NCBI GenBank assembly: GCA_030647905.1
Contig: JAUSJA010000025.1
Span: 186,001 to 250,000 of the forward strand
Source: Gemmatimonadaceae bacterium
GTDB lineage: Bacteria; Gemmatimonadota; Gemmatimonadetes; Gemmatimonadales; Gemmatimonadaceae
Reading direction: 5' to 3'
Length of the DNA: 64,000 nucleotides
Shown: positions 3,389-64,000 of the stretch, piece after piece
How the letters are laid out: each line of letters opens with the position of its first letter
How positions within the stretch are numbered: the stretch's first letter is position 1
The notes under the pieces: model-generated
What the model was told of the DNA's origin: nothing
Seen by the model: only the letters and a program-made list of their open reading frames with translations
Databases searched by the model: none
Position numbers and translations under genes: made by a program

Positions 3389-5022
3389 TTCGAGTGTTCG
3401 TGCGGTTTCGTGAGCTCGTCCATGGTTCGCGTGCTGCCTGGCGTTCCCGGCCTCCGGTACTCCGGAGGCAGCTCCCAGGGATAGTACGGCGCCGGATCCT
3501 TCGCCGGTACGGCGTACTGGTTTCTCAACGCGGCGAGCTTCTTCTCGAGATCCTTTCGCACTCCCGCATACGATGCGTCGGCGTAAACGCTTTTCATCTC
3601 CTCCGGATCACGCTCGAGATCGAACAGCTCCCACTCACCGATTTCGTAGTAGTAAATGAGCTTGTATCGCGACGTGCGAACTCCATACTGCCGCCGCACG
3701 GCGTGCCAGCCGGGATACTCGAAGTACTGGTAGTAGATCGCGTCGCGCCAGTTGGCGGGAGTTTTTCCCCGCAGCAGCGGGACGATGCTCGCTCCCTGCA
3801 TCGGCGCGGGTACGCGAACTCCCGCCATCTCGAGGAACGTCTCGGCGAAATCGAGATTCATCACGAGGTCCTTGTTGCGCGAGCCCGGCTCGACTACGCC
3901 TGGCCATCTCACGATCAGCGGAGCGCGGAGCGACTCCTCGTACATCCAGCGCTTGTCGAACCAGCCGTGATCTCCGAGGAAGAAGCCCTGATCGGAGGCG
4001 TAGACCACGACCGTGCTTTTCGAAAGGCCCGACTTGTCCAGCTCGGCGAGCACTCGTCCCACCTGCGCGTCGAGAGCCTGTACGACCCGCATGTAATCGG
4101 CGATGAACCTCTGATACTTCCACTTCGCGAGGGCTTCACCCTCGAGGCCGGCCGCACGCAGCTTCGCGTTCTCCGGCTCGTATGCCGCACGCCACACCGC
4201 GAGCTGCTCTGACGTGAGATTGTTCGGCTCCTCGACCTTGAGGTCCCGCGGTACCATGTCGAGCGCGATCTTCATCTCCGGATCGCGCGACGGGGAGGCG
4301 CGCCCCGCGCCAGTATCCCAGAAGGTGCCCGGCATCTCGAATGTGGTGTCGCGGTACAGCGAGAGCTGGTCCGCCCCCGGATCCCACCACCGGTGCGGCG
4401 CGTTGAAGTTGAGCATCAGGAGAAATGGCTTCTTCGCATCCCGATCCTCGTGAAGCCACCGCATTGCGCGGCCGGTCACGACATCGAGCGTGTAGCCTGT
4501 GTAGCGAACGCTGTCGTCACCATTGTGGAGCACCGGGTTGTAGTAGGGACCCTGCCCCGCGAGGATCTCGTACCTGTCGAATCCCTCGGGCTCCGACCTC
4601 AGGTGCCACTTTCCAAACAGCGCAGTCTGGTATCCGGCGGCCTGCATCAGTTTCGGAAAAGTCAACGTCGTCGGATGTAATGCTTCCGTGTTCGTCATCA
4701 CACCATTGAGATGACCGTACTGTCCGGTGAGCACTGTCGCGCGCGCGGGGCCGCAGATGGAATTCGTGACGAACGAGTTGACGAACAGCATGCCGTCGCC
4801 CGCGAGACGGTCGAGATTCCGCGTCGGGGGCAGCTTGATCCCGTACTTGAGCGACGTCTGATACGCAGAGATAGCGTGCGCGGCGTGATCGTCGGAGAAG
4901 AGGAAGACAACATTGGGGCGCTCCGCCGCGGCGGCCACGATAGGCACGGATTGGCGGGCAGGGCCCGAGCACGCGAGGACCGTGCAGGCCAGCAGAGTCG
5001 TGATGGATATCGAGCGGATCAT
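3385..5022 (-). CDS. Secreted/lipoprotein sulfatase (arylsulfatase family, type I)
   Basis: Hydrolyses sulfate esters, probably on carbohydrates, outside the cytoplasm. The start at 5022 was chosen over an upstream in-frame ATG at 5163 because it has a Shine-Dalgarno-like GGGGAGA just upstream and begins a lipoprotein signal (MIRSISITTLLACTVLAC). RPNVVFLFSDDHA supplies the two metal-binding Asp (~44-45). SICGPARATVLTG carries the CxPxR signature, whose Cys (~90) would be converted to formylglycine, as in type I sulfatases. FGKWH, the DAQVGRVLAELD helix, SDQGFFLGDHGWFDK and the C-terminal small domain are all present, so length and domains look complete (545 aa). Maturation needs a formylglycine-generating enzyme, not seen here. 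Coupled by ATGA overlap to the downstream fusion gene and divergent from the DUF1460 gene. Confidence 0.9.
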   Translation of the reverse strand: MIRSISITTLLACTVLACSGPARQSVPIVAAAAERPNVVFLFSDDHAAHAISAYQTSLKYGIKLPPTRNLDRLAGDGMLFVNSFVTNSICGPARATVLTGQYGHLNGVMTNTEALHPTTLTFPKLMQAAGYQTALFGKWHLRSEPEGFDRYEILAGQGPYYNPVLHNGDDSVRYTGYTLDVVTGRAMRWLHEDRDAKKPFLLMLNFNAPHRWWDPGADQLSLYRDTTFEMPGTFWDTGAGRASPSRDPEMKIALDMVPRDLKVEEPNNLTSEQLAVWRAAYEPENAKLRAAGLEGEALAKWKYQRFIADYMRVVQALDAQVGRVLAELDKSGLSKSTVVVYASDQGFFLGDHGWFDKRWMYEESLRAPLIVRWPGVVEPGSRNKDLVMNLDFAETFLEMAGVRVPAPMQGASIVPLLRGKTPANWRDAIYYQYFEYPGWHAVRRQYGVRTSRYKLIYYYEIGEWELFDLERDPEEMKSVYADASYAGVRKDLEKKLAALRNQYAVPAKDPAPYYPWELPPEYRRPGTPGSTRTMDELTKPHEHSK

Positions 5023-21228: not shown

Positions 21229-21390
21229 CTACCCGACGGCTGGATGAGGCGAATGTTTGAAGCGCGCATTGTTTCTCCAGATGCCCGGACGACCGGGCGT
21301 TGAGCGATATTGTTGGCGGTCAGGCAGCCCGCGGCCCTTAACTAAAGGCCGAAACGTCCGAGTATCAATCGAGAACCTGGGAACGACAGC

Positions 21391-22026
21391 ATGCGCGTTG
21401 CGATCGTTGGGGGGCCCGGAGTCGGCAAGAGCACGCTCGTTCGCCAGCTCGGCGACCTCTATCACCACGGGTCGTACGGAGAGGGCGAGAAAGGCGTGTG
21501 GGATCAGCACGTTCTCGAGGACATCGGGGCTGGGCTCAATCCGATTGGCGTCACGGCGTACTTCGGCGAGCTGTACGACGCCAACTACCGCGACGCGGAA
21601 GAGCATGACCGACCCGATCGCGTCATCTTCATCGAGGGTGCGCGCATCACTCTCGAGGCGCACATCGTTGAATATCCGGAGGAATACCACGCCGGGCTTC
21701 GCGACGTTCTCGCGATCGGCGACGAGTGGAAACCGGACCGCGTGATCGTCCTGACGTCGAGCAGCGACACGGTCGAGAAGCACATCCGCCTGCGGCGACG
21801 CGCGCACGAACAGGTCGAGAACATGGTACGGCGATTCCGTTTGATAGACAGCGAATTCCGCCGCCTCGCGCCCCAATATCCCGACACCATAGTGCTGGAC
21901 CGCGATGGGATTGAATTCCACGAGCGCGAGGGTCTGTCCTCAGTCATCAAAGCGGCGGGTCTCCCGCCGTTTCAGACCATCCCTTACAGGCAAATGGAAA
22001 GCTACGCGGCGGAATTCCGCGACTAG
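21391..22026 (+). CDS. P-loop ATPase/kinase-like protein (AAA_28/NadR-type fold)
   Basis: 211 residues. The Walker A motif MRVAIVGGPGVGKSTLVRQL is at the very N-terminus, followed by a thymidylate/NadR-kinase-like layout: DRVIFIEGARITLEAHIVEY supplies a DE-like acidic/Arg region and HIRLRRRAHEQVENMVRRFR a basic lid-like helix. It probably phosphorylates a nucleoside or small metabolite, or is a signalling ATPase; the family does not fix the substrate. It converges with a GNAT gene (10 bp apart). Confidence 0.75.
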   Translation: MRVAIVGGPGVGKSTLVRQLGDLYHHGSYGEGEKGVWDQHVLEDIGAGLNPIGVTAYFGELYDANYRDAEEHDRPDRVIFIEGARITLEAHIVEYPEEYHAGLRDVLAIGDEWKPDRVIVLTSSSDTVEKHIRLRRRAHEQVENMVRRFRLIDSEFRRLAPQYPDTIVLDRDGIEFHEREGLSSVIKAAGLPPFQTIPYRQMESYAAEFRD

Positions 22027-60616: not shown

Positions 60617-61325
60617 TCAGACCGAACAGTTCAGCGCAGCCAGCGCTGACTGCCACTCCTCCTCGCTGATCGCCTTGCGCGCGCGGAAATTGATTCCGAG
60701 CGTACCGAACTTCGCGGCACTCGATGCCTGTGGTGCATCGGCATAAACGTCCACTCGCGACACGATCTCGAAATTCACGAACCCGGCAGCGACGACCGTC
60801 GCTTGAAGCTCCGCTTCGACCAGAGCACCGGCAATTCAGCCCTTCCACAGGTCTATGTCACGCCTCGCACCATCCCCGACGTCCTTCTCAACGAGAATGT
60901 CACCGATCTGAAGCCGTCCGCCTGGCTTCAGCACACGCGCCATCTCCTGAAGTCCCGCCATCTTGTCGGGGAAAAGATTGAGCACACCGTTCGAGATGAC
61001 GACGTCGGCCCACGCATCCGCCACGGGAAGCGACTCGGCCAGACCATGATGGAAACGAACATTGCGAAACCCGCTGGCCTCGGCGCTCTCTCGCGCCCGA
61101 TCGAGCAAACGAAGCGATGCTCTCTTCGGGCACTCCCGCGAGCCATTCATCCTCGTATCCGAGGATACCCGCGAGCCGACGACCCGTGTGGAAGTGGAAG
61201 CCCTGCTCCGGATCCTCCGCCACCATCGCGTACTCGTTCTGAATGGCGCGCCGAAGTTCCTGAATGTCGAGCCCTTCTGGCGCGCGACTCGCGCGCACCA
61301 CCCGAGCGCTAGCTGACTCTGTCAT
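60617..61325 (-). pseudogene. ArsM-like SAM methyltransferase with frameshifting deletion and in-frame TGA at a conserved Cys
   Basis: Three pieces in order. (1) 61325 to ~61110: IQNEYAMVAEDPEQGFHFHT, GYEDEWLAGVPEESIASF, the family N-terminus. (2) ~61110-60839, another frame: RESAEASGFRNVRFHHGLAE, DVVISNGVLNLFPDKM, MARVLKPGGRLQIGDILVEK, then DIDLWKG. (3) TGA 60838-60836, then in the same frame IAGALVEAELQATVVAAGF, QASSAAKFGTLGINFRARKA, to a normal stop at 60617. Between (1) and (2) ~45-50 residues with the SAM-binding DxGxGxG motif are gone. ArsM-type proteins read LWxGC-IAGAL at the TGA, that Cys binding As(III). Either selenocysteine or a nonsense mutation. With motif I lost, the enzyme as sequenced cannot bind SAM normally. 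Confidence 0.75.
60808..60826 (-). other. SECIS-shaped hairpin just after the in-frame TGA
   Basis: On the minus strand, 9 nt after the TGA, GCTCTG pairs with CGGAGC (six pairs, one G-U) around a 7-nt loop GTCGAAG beginning with GT. Bacterial SECIS elements have a 4-16 bp stem, a 3-14 nt loop with G in the first two positions, and a loop beginning ~16-37 nt after UGA; here the loop begins at +16. A chance hairpin in GC-rich DNA is not excluded. Confidence 0.4.
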
Positions 61326-61469: not shown

Positions 61470-63602
61470 TCAAACCCCGAGCTCGAGACCAATCTCCCCA
61501 CACAGCGCCTGCAACCTCTCGACCACACCCGAGTCTCCGTCCTGGCTGTCGCCCGCGGCCCGGACCAGCGTCCAAAGCGCCCTCAACAGATCGACGAGAT
61601 GCGCGCGCTCGCGGAGAACGACTTCGCGGCGGCTCTGCATTCGCCGCACGAGATCGAGCTGGTGTCGCACGAGCTCGCGCAGCTCTGCACGCTCGCGTGT
61701 GTCTCCAGTTCCGCCGGACTCGAGCGCATCAAGCTGGGAAACGAGGCGATTCGCCTCCCCCGGACCGGCGTCGCGGGAAAGTGTAGCAAGCTCACTGTCG
61801 CGCTGGTCAATTGCCTTCAGCAGGCGCTCCGCCGCAGTCGCAGTTCGCAAGCCAGAGTCTCCCGTGCTGGCCGGGAGGAGTTGAAGCACCTCGCGAATGG
61901 CACGCAGATAGTCCGAAGGCGCATCGCGGTCCGGTACGCGCACCTTTCCCGAAGCGGGGGCGAGCAAACGTGTCAACGCCGGTTCATTCCATCCCGACGA
62001 AGCCAGTGTCGGACCAAGAAGCAGGCGCAGCGACTGGTCGAACGCGAGCCCTATGCGCCGCGCCCAGGCAAATCCCGACATGACAGCCAGCGAGCCGGCA
62101 ATGAAGATCGCCCACTCCGCGACCTCGACCCACGATTCGTAAATCACCCCAGCGCCTGAAGAAATCCGTCCTCGCAGCAGAATGAGCAGAAGAAGTGCTG
62201 GACAGGATGCGATAAGGAGAACTCTCACTCCTTTGGCGATCCATGGCAGGCGGTCCCAGAGATCCGATGGCCGGCGAAGCGCGCGCGGCCACCACATGCC
62301 CCACCACTCGGGCGGCCACAATGCGATCCGCGCGAGGTCGAGGAATCTCATCGCGCGTCCCGCTCCATTCCACAGATGCAGGACGAGTCCGATCGGGACG
62401 ATCAAGGCGACGAGAATCAGCAGCGCCCGCTCGCTGCCGGACCGCTCCGTGAGAAGCGCGAAGCCGGCCCATCCGGCCGCCCAGAGAAAAGCGTACGGAC
62501 CGAAGCTCGGCAGATCACGAACTGCGTCCGGCAGGCGTTCGGCCGCAACGATGCTCTCGAGCGCTTCTCTCAGCGATCGCGCGTTCGCCCAGCGGTCCGC
62601 TCTGTCGCGAGCCATGCACTTGCGGACAACGGACGACAAGTCCGGCGGAATCGAAGAGACGAGCGCATCCACCGGCGTCGGATCTTCGACAAGTCGCCGG
62701 TAGATTGTCGCTGCGGCGGTCTCACTGCGGAACGGCTCGCGTCCCGTCAGCATCACATAGGCAACCGCTCCCAGAGAGTAGATGTCGCTCCGCTCGTCAA
62801 TGTCCGGAGCACCGGTCACCTGCTCGGGCGACATGTAATCCGGCGTGCCCAATATGGCCCCTGTAGCCGTGAGGCTCTCGGCCGCACCCGGCATCTTCGA
62901 GATCCCGAAATCCGCGAGGATCGCGTGGCCGCTTTCGCTGTCGAGAAGGATGTTCGCGGGCTTGATGTCCCGGTGAATCACACCGTTCCGGTGCGCGCAC
63001 TCCAGAGCGTCGGCCATCTCGCTGAAGATTCGATGCGCTTCAGTCCACGGCAGGAGACCCTCGCGTCGAATTCTCTCCCCGAGAGTTTCCCCGCGCACGT
63101 ACGTCATCACGAAATACCAGAGGTTGTCTATCTCACCGAAGCTGTGCAGCCCGAGAATGCCGGGGTGAGAGAGCCGCGCCGCTATCCGGGCCTCCCGTCG
63201 AAAGCGCTCCCGATGGCCTTCGGCAACCGCGAGGTCGGGACGGAGGACCTTGATCGCGACGAACCGCTCGAGCGCCCGCTCTCTCGCCAGATACACGCAC
63301 CCCATTCCACCACTTCCGAGAGGGCGGATGATCTCATACTGGTGCGCCAGCACACTCTCCAGAAGGCTTCGCAATGTCGCATCCTGCTCTGCGACCAGAG
63401 ATCCCGCCGCCGAGGCGATGGCTGCCCGCGCTTCCGGCAGACTGTCGGCCGCGTCAGCGGCCGCGAGAAGAGACTCCACTTCCAGGCGAAGCTCCGCATC
63501 GTTCCCGCACGCGGAATGGAGCAGTTCCGTCCGTTCAGCTCCGGGCGCCTCCATCGCGAGAGCGACGATCGATTTGATCCGCTGCCAGCGCTCCAGACTC
63601 AC
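61470..63602 (-). CDS. Membrane Ser/Thr protein kinase (PknB-like), coupled to an ECF sigma factor
   Basis: 710 residues from GTG 63602, chosen because GTG overlaps the ECF stop (GTGA) and starts SLERWQRIKSIVALAMEAPG, the usual leader of sigma-linked kinases in these phyla; ATG 63647 lies inside the sigma gene. Kinase domain ~80-345: IIRPLGSGGMGCVYLARERA (P-loop), VAIKVLRPDL (Lys), HRDIKPANILLDSE (catalytic loop), ADFGISKM (DFG), GTPDYMSPEQ (APE-like) and DERSDIYSLGAVAYVMLTGR. Several TM segments follow (~365-560), then a cytosolic helical tail with coiled-coil character (VSQLDALESGGTGDTRERAE). No PASTA or TPR sensor. Likely a signalling kinase controlling or controlled with the adjacent sigma factor. 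Confidence 0.92.
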   Translation of the reverse strand: MSLERWQRIKSIVALAMEAPGAERTELLHSACGNDAELRLEVESLLAAADAADSLPEARAAIASAAGSLVAEQDATLRSLLESVLAHQYEIIRPLGSGGMGCVYLARERALERFVAIKVLRPDLAVAEGHRERFRREARIAARLSHPGILGLHSFGEIDNLWYFVMTYVRGETLGERIRREGLLPWTEAHRIFSEMADALECAHRNGVIHRDIKPANILLDSESGHAILADFGISKMPGAAESLTATGAILGTPDYMSPEQVTGAPDIDERSDIYSLGAVAYVMLTGREPFRSETAAATIYRRLVEDPTPVDALVSSIPPDLSSVVRKCMARDRADRWANARSLREALESIVAAERLPDAVRDLPSFGPYAFLWAAGWAGFALLTERSGSERALLILVALIVPIGLVLHLWNGAGRAMRFLDLARIALWPPEWWGMWWPRALRRPSDLWDRLPWIAKGVRVLLIASCPALLLLILLRGRISSGAGVIYESWVEVAEWAIFIAGSLAVMSGFAWARRIGLAFDQSLRLLLGPTLASSGWNEPALTRLLAPASGKVRVPDRDAPSDYLRAIREVLQLLPASTGDSGLRTATAAERLLKAIDQRDSELATLSRDAGPGEANRLVSQLDALESGGTGDTRERAELRELVRHQLDLVRRMQSRREVVLRERAHLVDLLRALWTLVRAAGDSQDGDSGVVERLQALCGEIGLELGV

Positions 63603-64000
63603 GTGTCGCTCAGTTCCCGCCGGAGCCAGGCGCGCGCAACTGCCCACTCGCGTTTGACAGTAGCCGGAGAAATCCCGAGCGCCTCGGCCGTCTCATCGAT
63701 GTTGAGACCCGTGAAATAGCGAAGCTCCACGACCCGCGCCTGGCCGGGGTCGAGCGTCGCAAGCTTCTCGAGCGCTTCGTGCAGCGCGAGTATGTCCACA
63801 GCGCTCGACGACGCGGATGCTTGCGACGCGTCGTGCACATCATCGAGCGTGATCGCGCGCGCTCCGCCGCCGCGTTTCTCGGAGCAGCGAGCCCGTGCGT
63901 GATCTACGAGGACCCGACGCATCACCTGCGCGGCCACGCCGAAGAACTGTGCGCGGTTCTGCCACCCGGCACGGCTCTGGTCCACCAGTCGGAGATAGAC
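63599..64000 (-). CDS. ECF-type RNA polymerase sigma factor, 5' end outside window
   Basis: The frame is open to the right edge; visible residues read VYLRLVDQSRAGWQNRAQFF, then GVAAQVMRRVLVDHARAR and a KRGGGARAITLDDVHD linker (sigma2 end). These are followed by sigma4: LEKLATLDPGQARVVELRYF, TGLNIDETAEALGISPATVK, REWAVARAWLRREL. This matches the ECF group found next to PknB-like kinases in Gemmatimonadota and Acidobacteria. An internal GTG at 63985 is not the real start. Translationally coupled to the kinase by GTGA. Confidence 0.92.
   Translation of the reverse strand, partial: VYLRLVDQSRAGWQNRAQFFGVAAQVMRRVLVDHARARCSEKRGGGARAITLDDVHDASQASASSSAVDILALHEALEKLATLDPGQARVVELRYFTGLNIDETAEALGISPATVKREWAVARAWLRRELSDT

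Follow-up and report, generated by a model that had tools for sequence, protein, structure and literature searches.

The window (the whole 64,000-nucleotide stretch of Gemmatimonadaceae DNA analysed here) very probably holds what is left of a recently inactivated selenoprotein gene, that of a SAM-dependent methyltransferase of the ArsM/AS3MT fold, whose UGA would once have been read as selenocysteine (Sec) by means of a bacterial SECIS (bSECIS) hairpin. The observations underlying this reading are a conserved TGA, a conserved SECIS, the Sec machinery and a deletion; the fold of the relatives is predicted. The gene is composed of the following features.

61325 to 60617, minus strand: Sec methyltransferase gene, with an ATG start at 61325 and a stop at 60619-60617.
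61108 to 61325, minus strand: 5′ gene fragment, the N-terminal domain from the ATG to VPEESIASF, delimited by the open reading frame and by aligning the DNA with the intact copy in genome G030.
61107 to 61108, minus strand: deletion junction, 152 nt missing relative to the intact homologue, from the alignment of the window with G030.
60617 to 61107, minus strand: 3′ gene fragment, comprising the remaining catalytic domain, the TGA, 72 further codons and the stop 60619-60617.
60836 to 60838, minus strand: in-frame TGA, probable ancestral selenocysteine codon within the motif LWKG-U-IAGAL, with TGA at the matching site in G030, G306 and nearly all of the Sec clade.
60808 to 60826, minus strand: putative relic of a bacterial SECIS hairpin, GCUCUGGUCGAAGCGGAGC, with 6 bp left (7-8 bp in relatives).

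The best intact homologue of the window gene, from G030, belongs to another genus of the same family and is 76% identical. In the DNA alignment of the two, the window shows a single 152-nt gap and no other change of frame; the breakpoint at 61107/61108 is certain to within a few bases only. On this alignment, the gap is one deletion event. In G030, the lost stretch specifies SAM-binding motifs I and II (VDVGCGAGIDSLIAARMVGASGTVVGVDMT). Its length is not divisible by three, which also puts the two halves of the gene out of frame. The window copy thus has neither an intact frame apart from the TGA nor SAM-binding motifs, and its product cannot work in this genome. The first-pass annotation had described the gene as broken upstream, and the break is this one deletion. 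Directly upstream, on the same strand, the region 61470-63985 holds a serine/threonine kinase gene beside an ECF sigma factor-like gene, the latter as judged by eye; the intact G030 gene likewise adjoins a kinase gene.

The 5′ fragment retains FHFHTGR, a signature of the clade described below. The 3′ piece reads in frame as ...RRDIDLWKG-(TGA 60838-60836)-IAGALVEAELQATVVAAGFVNFEIVSR..., and 72 sense codons separate this TGA from the terminal stop, itself a TGA. With the internal TGA read as Cys, it is 180 residues long, of which residues 16-141 match the arsenite methyltransferase model NF008823 with 128.5 bits. Against the closest intact homologue, dN/dS is ~0.11 over 88 codons upstream of the TGA and ~0.08 over 65 codons downstream (~0.1 across the 3′ piece), values that are approximate, synonymous sites being near saturation. 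These ratios show purifying selection on the codons of both sides, and the earlier claim of an in-frame TGA followed by 72 conserved codons is exact in its coordinates. The window branch carries 7 unique amino-acid changes and that of G030 carries 8. The lack of an excess in the window implies that the inactivation is recent, or that the deletion, known from one assembly, reflects an assembly error or the variant of a single strain.

The two closest intact homologues, those of G030 and G306, come from other genera of the same order (G306 from another family). Both have TGA at the matching site, within LWKS-U-IAGAL and LWKG-U-IAGAL, respectively, and neither has a Cys codon there. Among 288 genomes of the order, 25 carry the gene at E<=1e-48, and each match listed is flagged with an internal TGA; the majority of these sites were read directly. 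GTDB contigs, scanned with a query ending upstream of the TGA site to keep the codon from influencing the choice, gave 80 relatives; built from genes of the SNGV type, this query favoured the clade but not the codon. All the SNGV-type relatives among the 80 have TGA, with one exception (L126, TGC), and they come from Chloroflexota, Actinomycetota, Alphaproteobacteria, Gemmatimonadota, Acidobacteriota, Planctomycetota and others. Three distant planctomycete loci (L146, L150 and L170; 35-39% identical), which have ANGI or VNGI for SNGV, carry Cys at the site and were left off the tree. This tree was computed without the TGA site and by a quick method, its deep branches being provisional. A supported branch separates 60 Sec rows and a single Cys row, L126 (together the 61-member Sec clade), from the rest. 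The window is paired with G030 (SH-aLRT 99) within a 12-row, all-Sec set (96), the nearest other members of which are from Chloroflexota and Rubrobacter. The Sec/Cys label needs two changes on the tree versus a mean of 37.7 with shuffled labels.

The window's genome (3.1 Mb, 98.6% complete) has the complete Sec decoding set, every component that the first-pass annotation had proposed to look for being found. SelA (534 bits), SelB (353 bits) and SelD score above their curated cut-offs, as does tRNA-Sec (69 bits) above its own. SelD has one in-frame TGA itself, at CAG-U-ASK; its gene (177684-178628 of its contig) is located ~100 bases upstream of tRNA-Sec. Furthermore, a BCP-type peroxiredoxin gene of this genome has TGA at the peroxidatic site, TSG-U (21265-21648 of another contig), and as it is apparently live, Sec decoding is likely in use. 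Formate dehydrogenase, looked for in the same genome as an additional selenoprotein, was not found. Among genomes with a TGA member, 25 of 30 have a tRNA-Sec of at least 64 bits; in the other five, mostly fragmented MAGs, no convincing one was found. Two genomes with a TGA member and no tRNA-Sec found above the cut-off are those of loci L113 and L107, and the former is a chromosome-level assembly, for which sequence gaps are a weak excuse. L126, the sole Cys member of the clade on the tree (TGC at 3586-3588 of its locus), comes from a genome whose best tRNA-Sec score, 43.6, is in the range of ordinary tRNAs and not convincing; it is a natural Sec-to-Cys replacement. The five TGA genomes lacking a convincing tRNA-Sec score count against the Sec reading.

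The hairpin noticed at 60808-60826 in the first-pass annotation is correctly located and coincides exactly with the position of a bSECIS that is conserved and covaries across the clade. The bSECIS model requires a loop of 3-9 nt with G in its first two positions, a stem of 4-16 bp, a distance of 16-37 nt from the UGA and a minimum free energy (MFE) <= -7.5 (PMC13188914). In most clade members, the 19 nt starting 9 nt past the TGA fold into a stem of 7-8 bp, typically with a GGA loop, as in GCUCUGCU-GGA-AGCAGAGC; an actinobacterial subgroup and a few others fit this stem poorly. The typical hairpin, with 8 bp, a GGA loop lying 17 nt from the UGA and -11.7 kcal/mol, fits the model. Over 59 distinct TGA genes, the 19-nt hairpin averages -9.7 kcal/mol, versus -3.5 kcal/mol in 55 homologues without TGA (all with Cys at the site except one, a misregistered row). 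Tested by synonymous recoding, it reaches p<0.05 in 41 of the 59 and in 6 of the 55, respectively. In a gap-free alignment of 51 sequences, from which the actinobacterial subgroup with its shifted stem was excluded, 89.5% of cells pair and 43 cells are changed on both sides. The covariation score is 0.327 versus 0.142+/-0.014 after shuffling (0/500), slid controls giving at most 0.110. This covariation is strong, yet it partly tracks clade-wide amino-acid changes and is hence not independent of the protein. A chance hairpin is ruled out at the clade level by the covariation together with the control homologues lacking TGA.

The window hairpin itself (60826-60808; 6 bp, loop GUCGAAG, 15 nt from the UGA, -7.6 kcal/mol) is borderline against the model. 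It beats 97.7% of synonymous recodings and 196 of 200 dinucleotide shuffles, and taken alone is only moderately unusual. G030 and G306 have an intact hairpin of identical sequence; relative to it, three substitutions specific to the window have broken the seventh pair, turned one A-U into G-U and removed the first G of the GG loop. These weakening changes suggest relaxed selection, as read from the sequences, by an argument independent of the deletion. Another candidate, the minimum-energy hairpin of the window (GAAGC-GGA-GCUUC, at 23 nt), was rejected as a SECIS, being weak (-3.4 kcal/mol) and not conserved.

The full machinery, the clade-wide TGA, the conserved and covarying bSECIS and the lone Cys member without a convincing tRNA-Sec make the window TGA a strongly supported, if sequence-based, case of an inherited selenocysteine codon. 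It is unlikely, though conceivable, that the gene is intact in the organism and yields a working selenoprotein, the 152-nt gap being an assembly error or the variant of one strain. The single frameshift, the dN/dS of ~0.1, the lack of excess amino-acid changes and a genome equipped with Sec machinery and other selenoproteins would all fit this. A clean loss of 152 nt from unique sequence is however rare in assemblies, and the three substitutions that weaken the SECIS are specific to the window. The annotation had weighed a Cys-to-stop mutation in a decaying gene, here an ordinary ArsM; the deletion does break the gene, and the family has many canonical Cys-type homologues. The gene is indeed dead here, but the intact orthologues of G030 and G306, and nearly all of the 61-member clade, share the TGA, which refutes this origin for the codon. 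The SECIS is conserved as well, and the window is nested in the Sec clade with Gly at the second As site, which excludes a recent descent from a three-Cys ArsM; a Cys-to-stop origin is thus highly improbable. Finally, reading of the UGA through, or as another amino acid than selenocysteine, would account for the frame open past it, but has next to no probability in view of the Cys at this site in homologues without TGA, the bSECIS downstream, the presence of tRNA-Sec, SelA, SelB and SelD, and the gene's own terminal TGA stop.

Structurally, the intact relatives are predicted to have the ArsM/AS3MT fold. The model of one of them, L093, has a mean pLDDT of 93.6, and its top 13 Foldseek matches in the PDB are all ArsM/AS3MT; it also possesses the SAM-binding motifs that the window copy has lost. 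As the first-pass annotation had proposed, the TGA falls at an As(III)-binding Cys; the Sec site aligns with the third one of solved ArsM structures (GEC-LAGAL in CrArsM and GEC-LGGAL, Cys224, in CmArsM). Of the three CmArsM sites 72, 174 and 224, the Sec clade keeps only the last, as Sec. In all 64 readable Sec entries (some genes having been fetched twice), and in L126, site 72 is T/V and site 174 is G; the window gene likewise carries Gly in place of Cys at the second As site. Among Cys homologues of the SNCV type, 55 of 56 have Cys at both other sites, site 72 of the remaining one being unread by the pattern. The Sec clade therefore falls short of the at least two, and usually three, As-binding cysteines of canonical ArsM/AS3MT. 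The intact G030 protein reaches 211 bits against NF008823, below the cut-off of 263, while a control Cys-type ArsM reaches 351 bits.

Functionally, the CmArsM mutants C174A and C224A each fail to methylate arsenite or methylarsenite (PMC3877260). The Sec clade has no Cys at site 174, which argues against the standard ArsM reaction. In contrast, ArsM of Thermus thermophilus (TtArsM) is reported to methylate arsenite with one cysteine, histidines being proposed as substitute ligands (PMC8649762). The Sec clade displays an invariant histidine in a [FY]HF..GR segment, and arsenic is a possible substrate, judging from these residues. In the intact relatives, the bSECIS hairpin, 9 nt past the UGA, would direct Sec insertion at the third As-binding Cys position (CmArsM Cys224). 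Facing the SAM methyl group, the selenol would then act as ligand or nucleophile, the sole conserved chalcogen in this role, and may bind a soft substrate such as trivalent arsenic, another metalloid or a sulfur/selenium species. The clade-specific invariant histidine (in FHFHTGR) might provide a second ligand. Of the selenocysteine arsenic ligand put forward in the earlier annotation, the Sec codon stands; the arsenic-ligand part stays conjectural, in a clade devoid of the other two As-binding cysteines.

Several genomes (G023, G030, G037, G042 and G051) have a Sec-type and a three-Cys gene together, which suggests different jobs for the two; no canonical ArsM was found in the window's genome. 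Gene order in L092 (2386-4460) is OsmC, a Sec methyltransferase fused to TusA, and DsrE. DsrE is also found near the Sec methyltransferase in L096 (4690-5061), L124 (3752-4504) and L125 (3817-4182), and L130 has an ArsR-rhodanese protein as a neighbour. Such sulfur-relay neighbours (OsmC, TusA, DsrE), found in several phyla, hint at sulfur or selenium chemistry; the window and G030 loci have none of them. Tentatively, with slightly less than even confidence, the Sec clade may be a distinct enzyme type in which a single Sec, perhaps with the invariant His, carries out the methylation of a non-arsenite substrate, possibly a sulfur/selenium species.

Sec-containing ArsM relatives are already known, and the kind itself is not new. 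Arsenite methyltransferase selenoproteins were reported in a 2008 GOS survey (PMC2398784), and a 2026 review lists an ArsM selenoprotein family with the motif UxxG among the experimentally verified ones (PMC13188914, citing Fomenko 2007). The window's clade shares with this known Sec ArsM (PRK11873/NF008823) the ArsM fold, Sec at UxxG and a bSECIS-type gene. It differs by the G030 score below the NF008823 cut-off, in the window by a broken copy and, probably, by the lack of Cys72 and Cys174 equivalents. Of the NCBIfam models, NF041537 (ArsM_AhpD_UU) gives the intact G030 protein its highest score (234.5 bits), and the two share the UxxG motif. The protein misses the cut-offs of this model (510 bits), of ArsM_DUF2284_UU (NF041536, 575 bits) and of MTase_UXPK_star (NF047649, 460 bits), all three described as fusions or proteins with at least two Sec. 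Canonical ArsM/AS3MT (CrArsM 5evj, CmArsM 4fr0, human 8xt7) have a similar fold, their third As-binding Cys aligning with Sec, but possess three catalytic cysteines where the Sec clade has a single Sec, the other two sites being T/V and G. TtArsM is comparable in that it is reported to work with a single cysteine; this cysteine is described as part of the N-terminal domain (PMC8649762), and the clade keeps a different site, as selenocysteine. The window gene is classed here as a pseudogene among the known Sec-containing ArsM-like proteins, apart from canonical ArsM. No mention that the equivalents of Cys72 and Cys174 have been lost together was found in the open-access papers searched.

What looks like a stop codon within an apparent pseudogene can thus turn out to be a fossil selenocysteine codon. 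The Sec methyltransferase clade is widespread, with members in Chloroflexota, Actinomycetota, Alphaproteobacteria, Gemmatimonadota and Acidobacteriota, and Cys-based surveys of arsM would miss it; one such survey retained only sequences with at least three of four conserved cysteines (PMC5552862). Two cultured isolates, Pseudonocardia asaccharolytica DSM 44247 and Actinomycetospora cinnamomea DSM 45771, have the Sec-type gene, which makes the substrate testable. Should the clade prove a distinct enzyme type, the window would represent a natural loss of that function.
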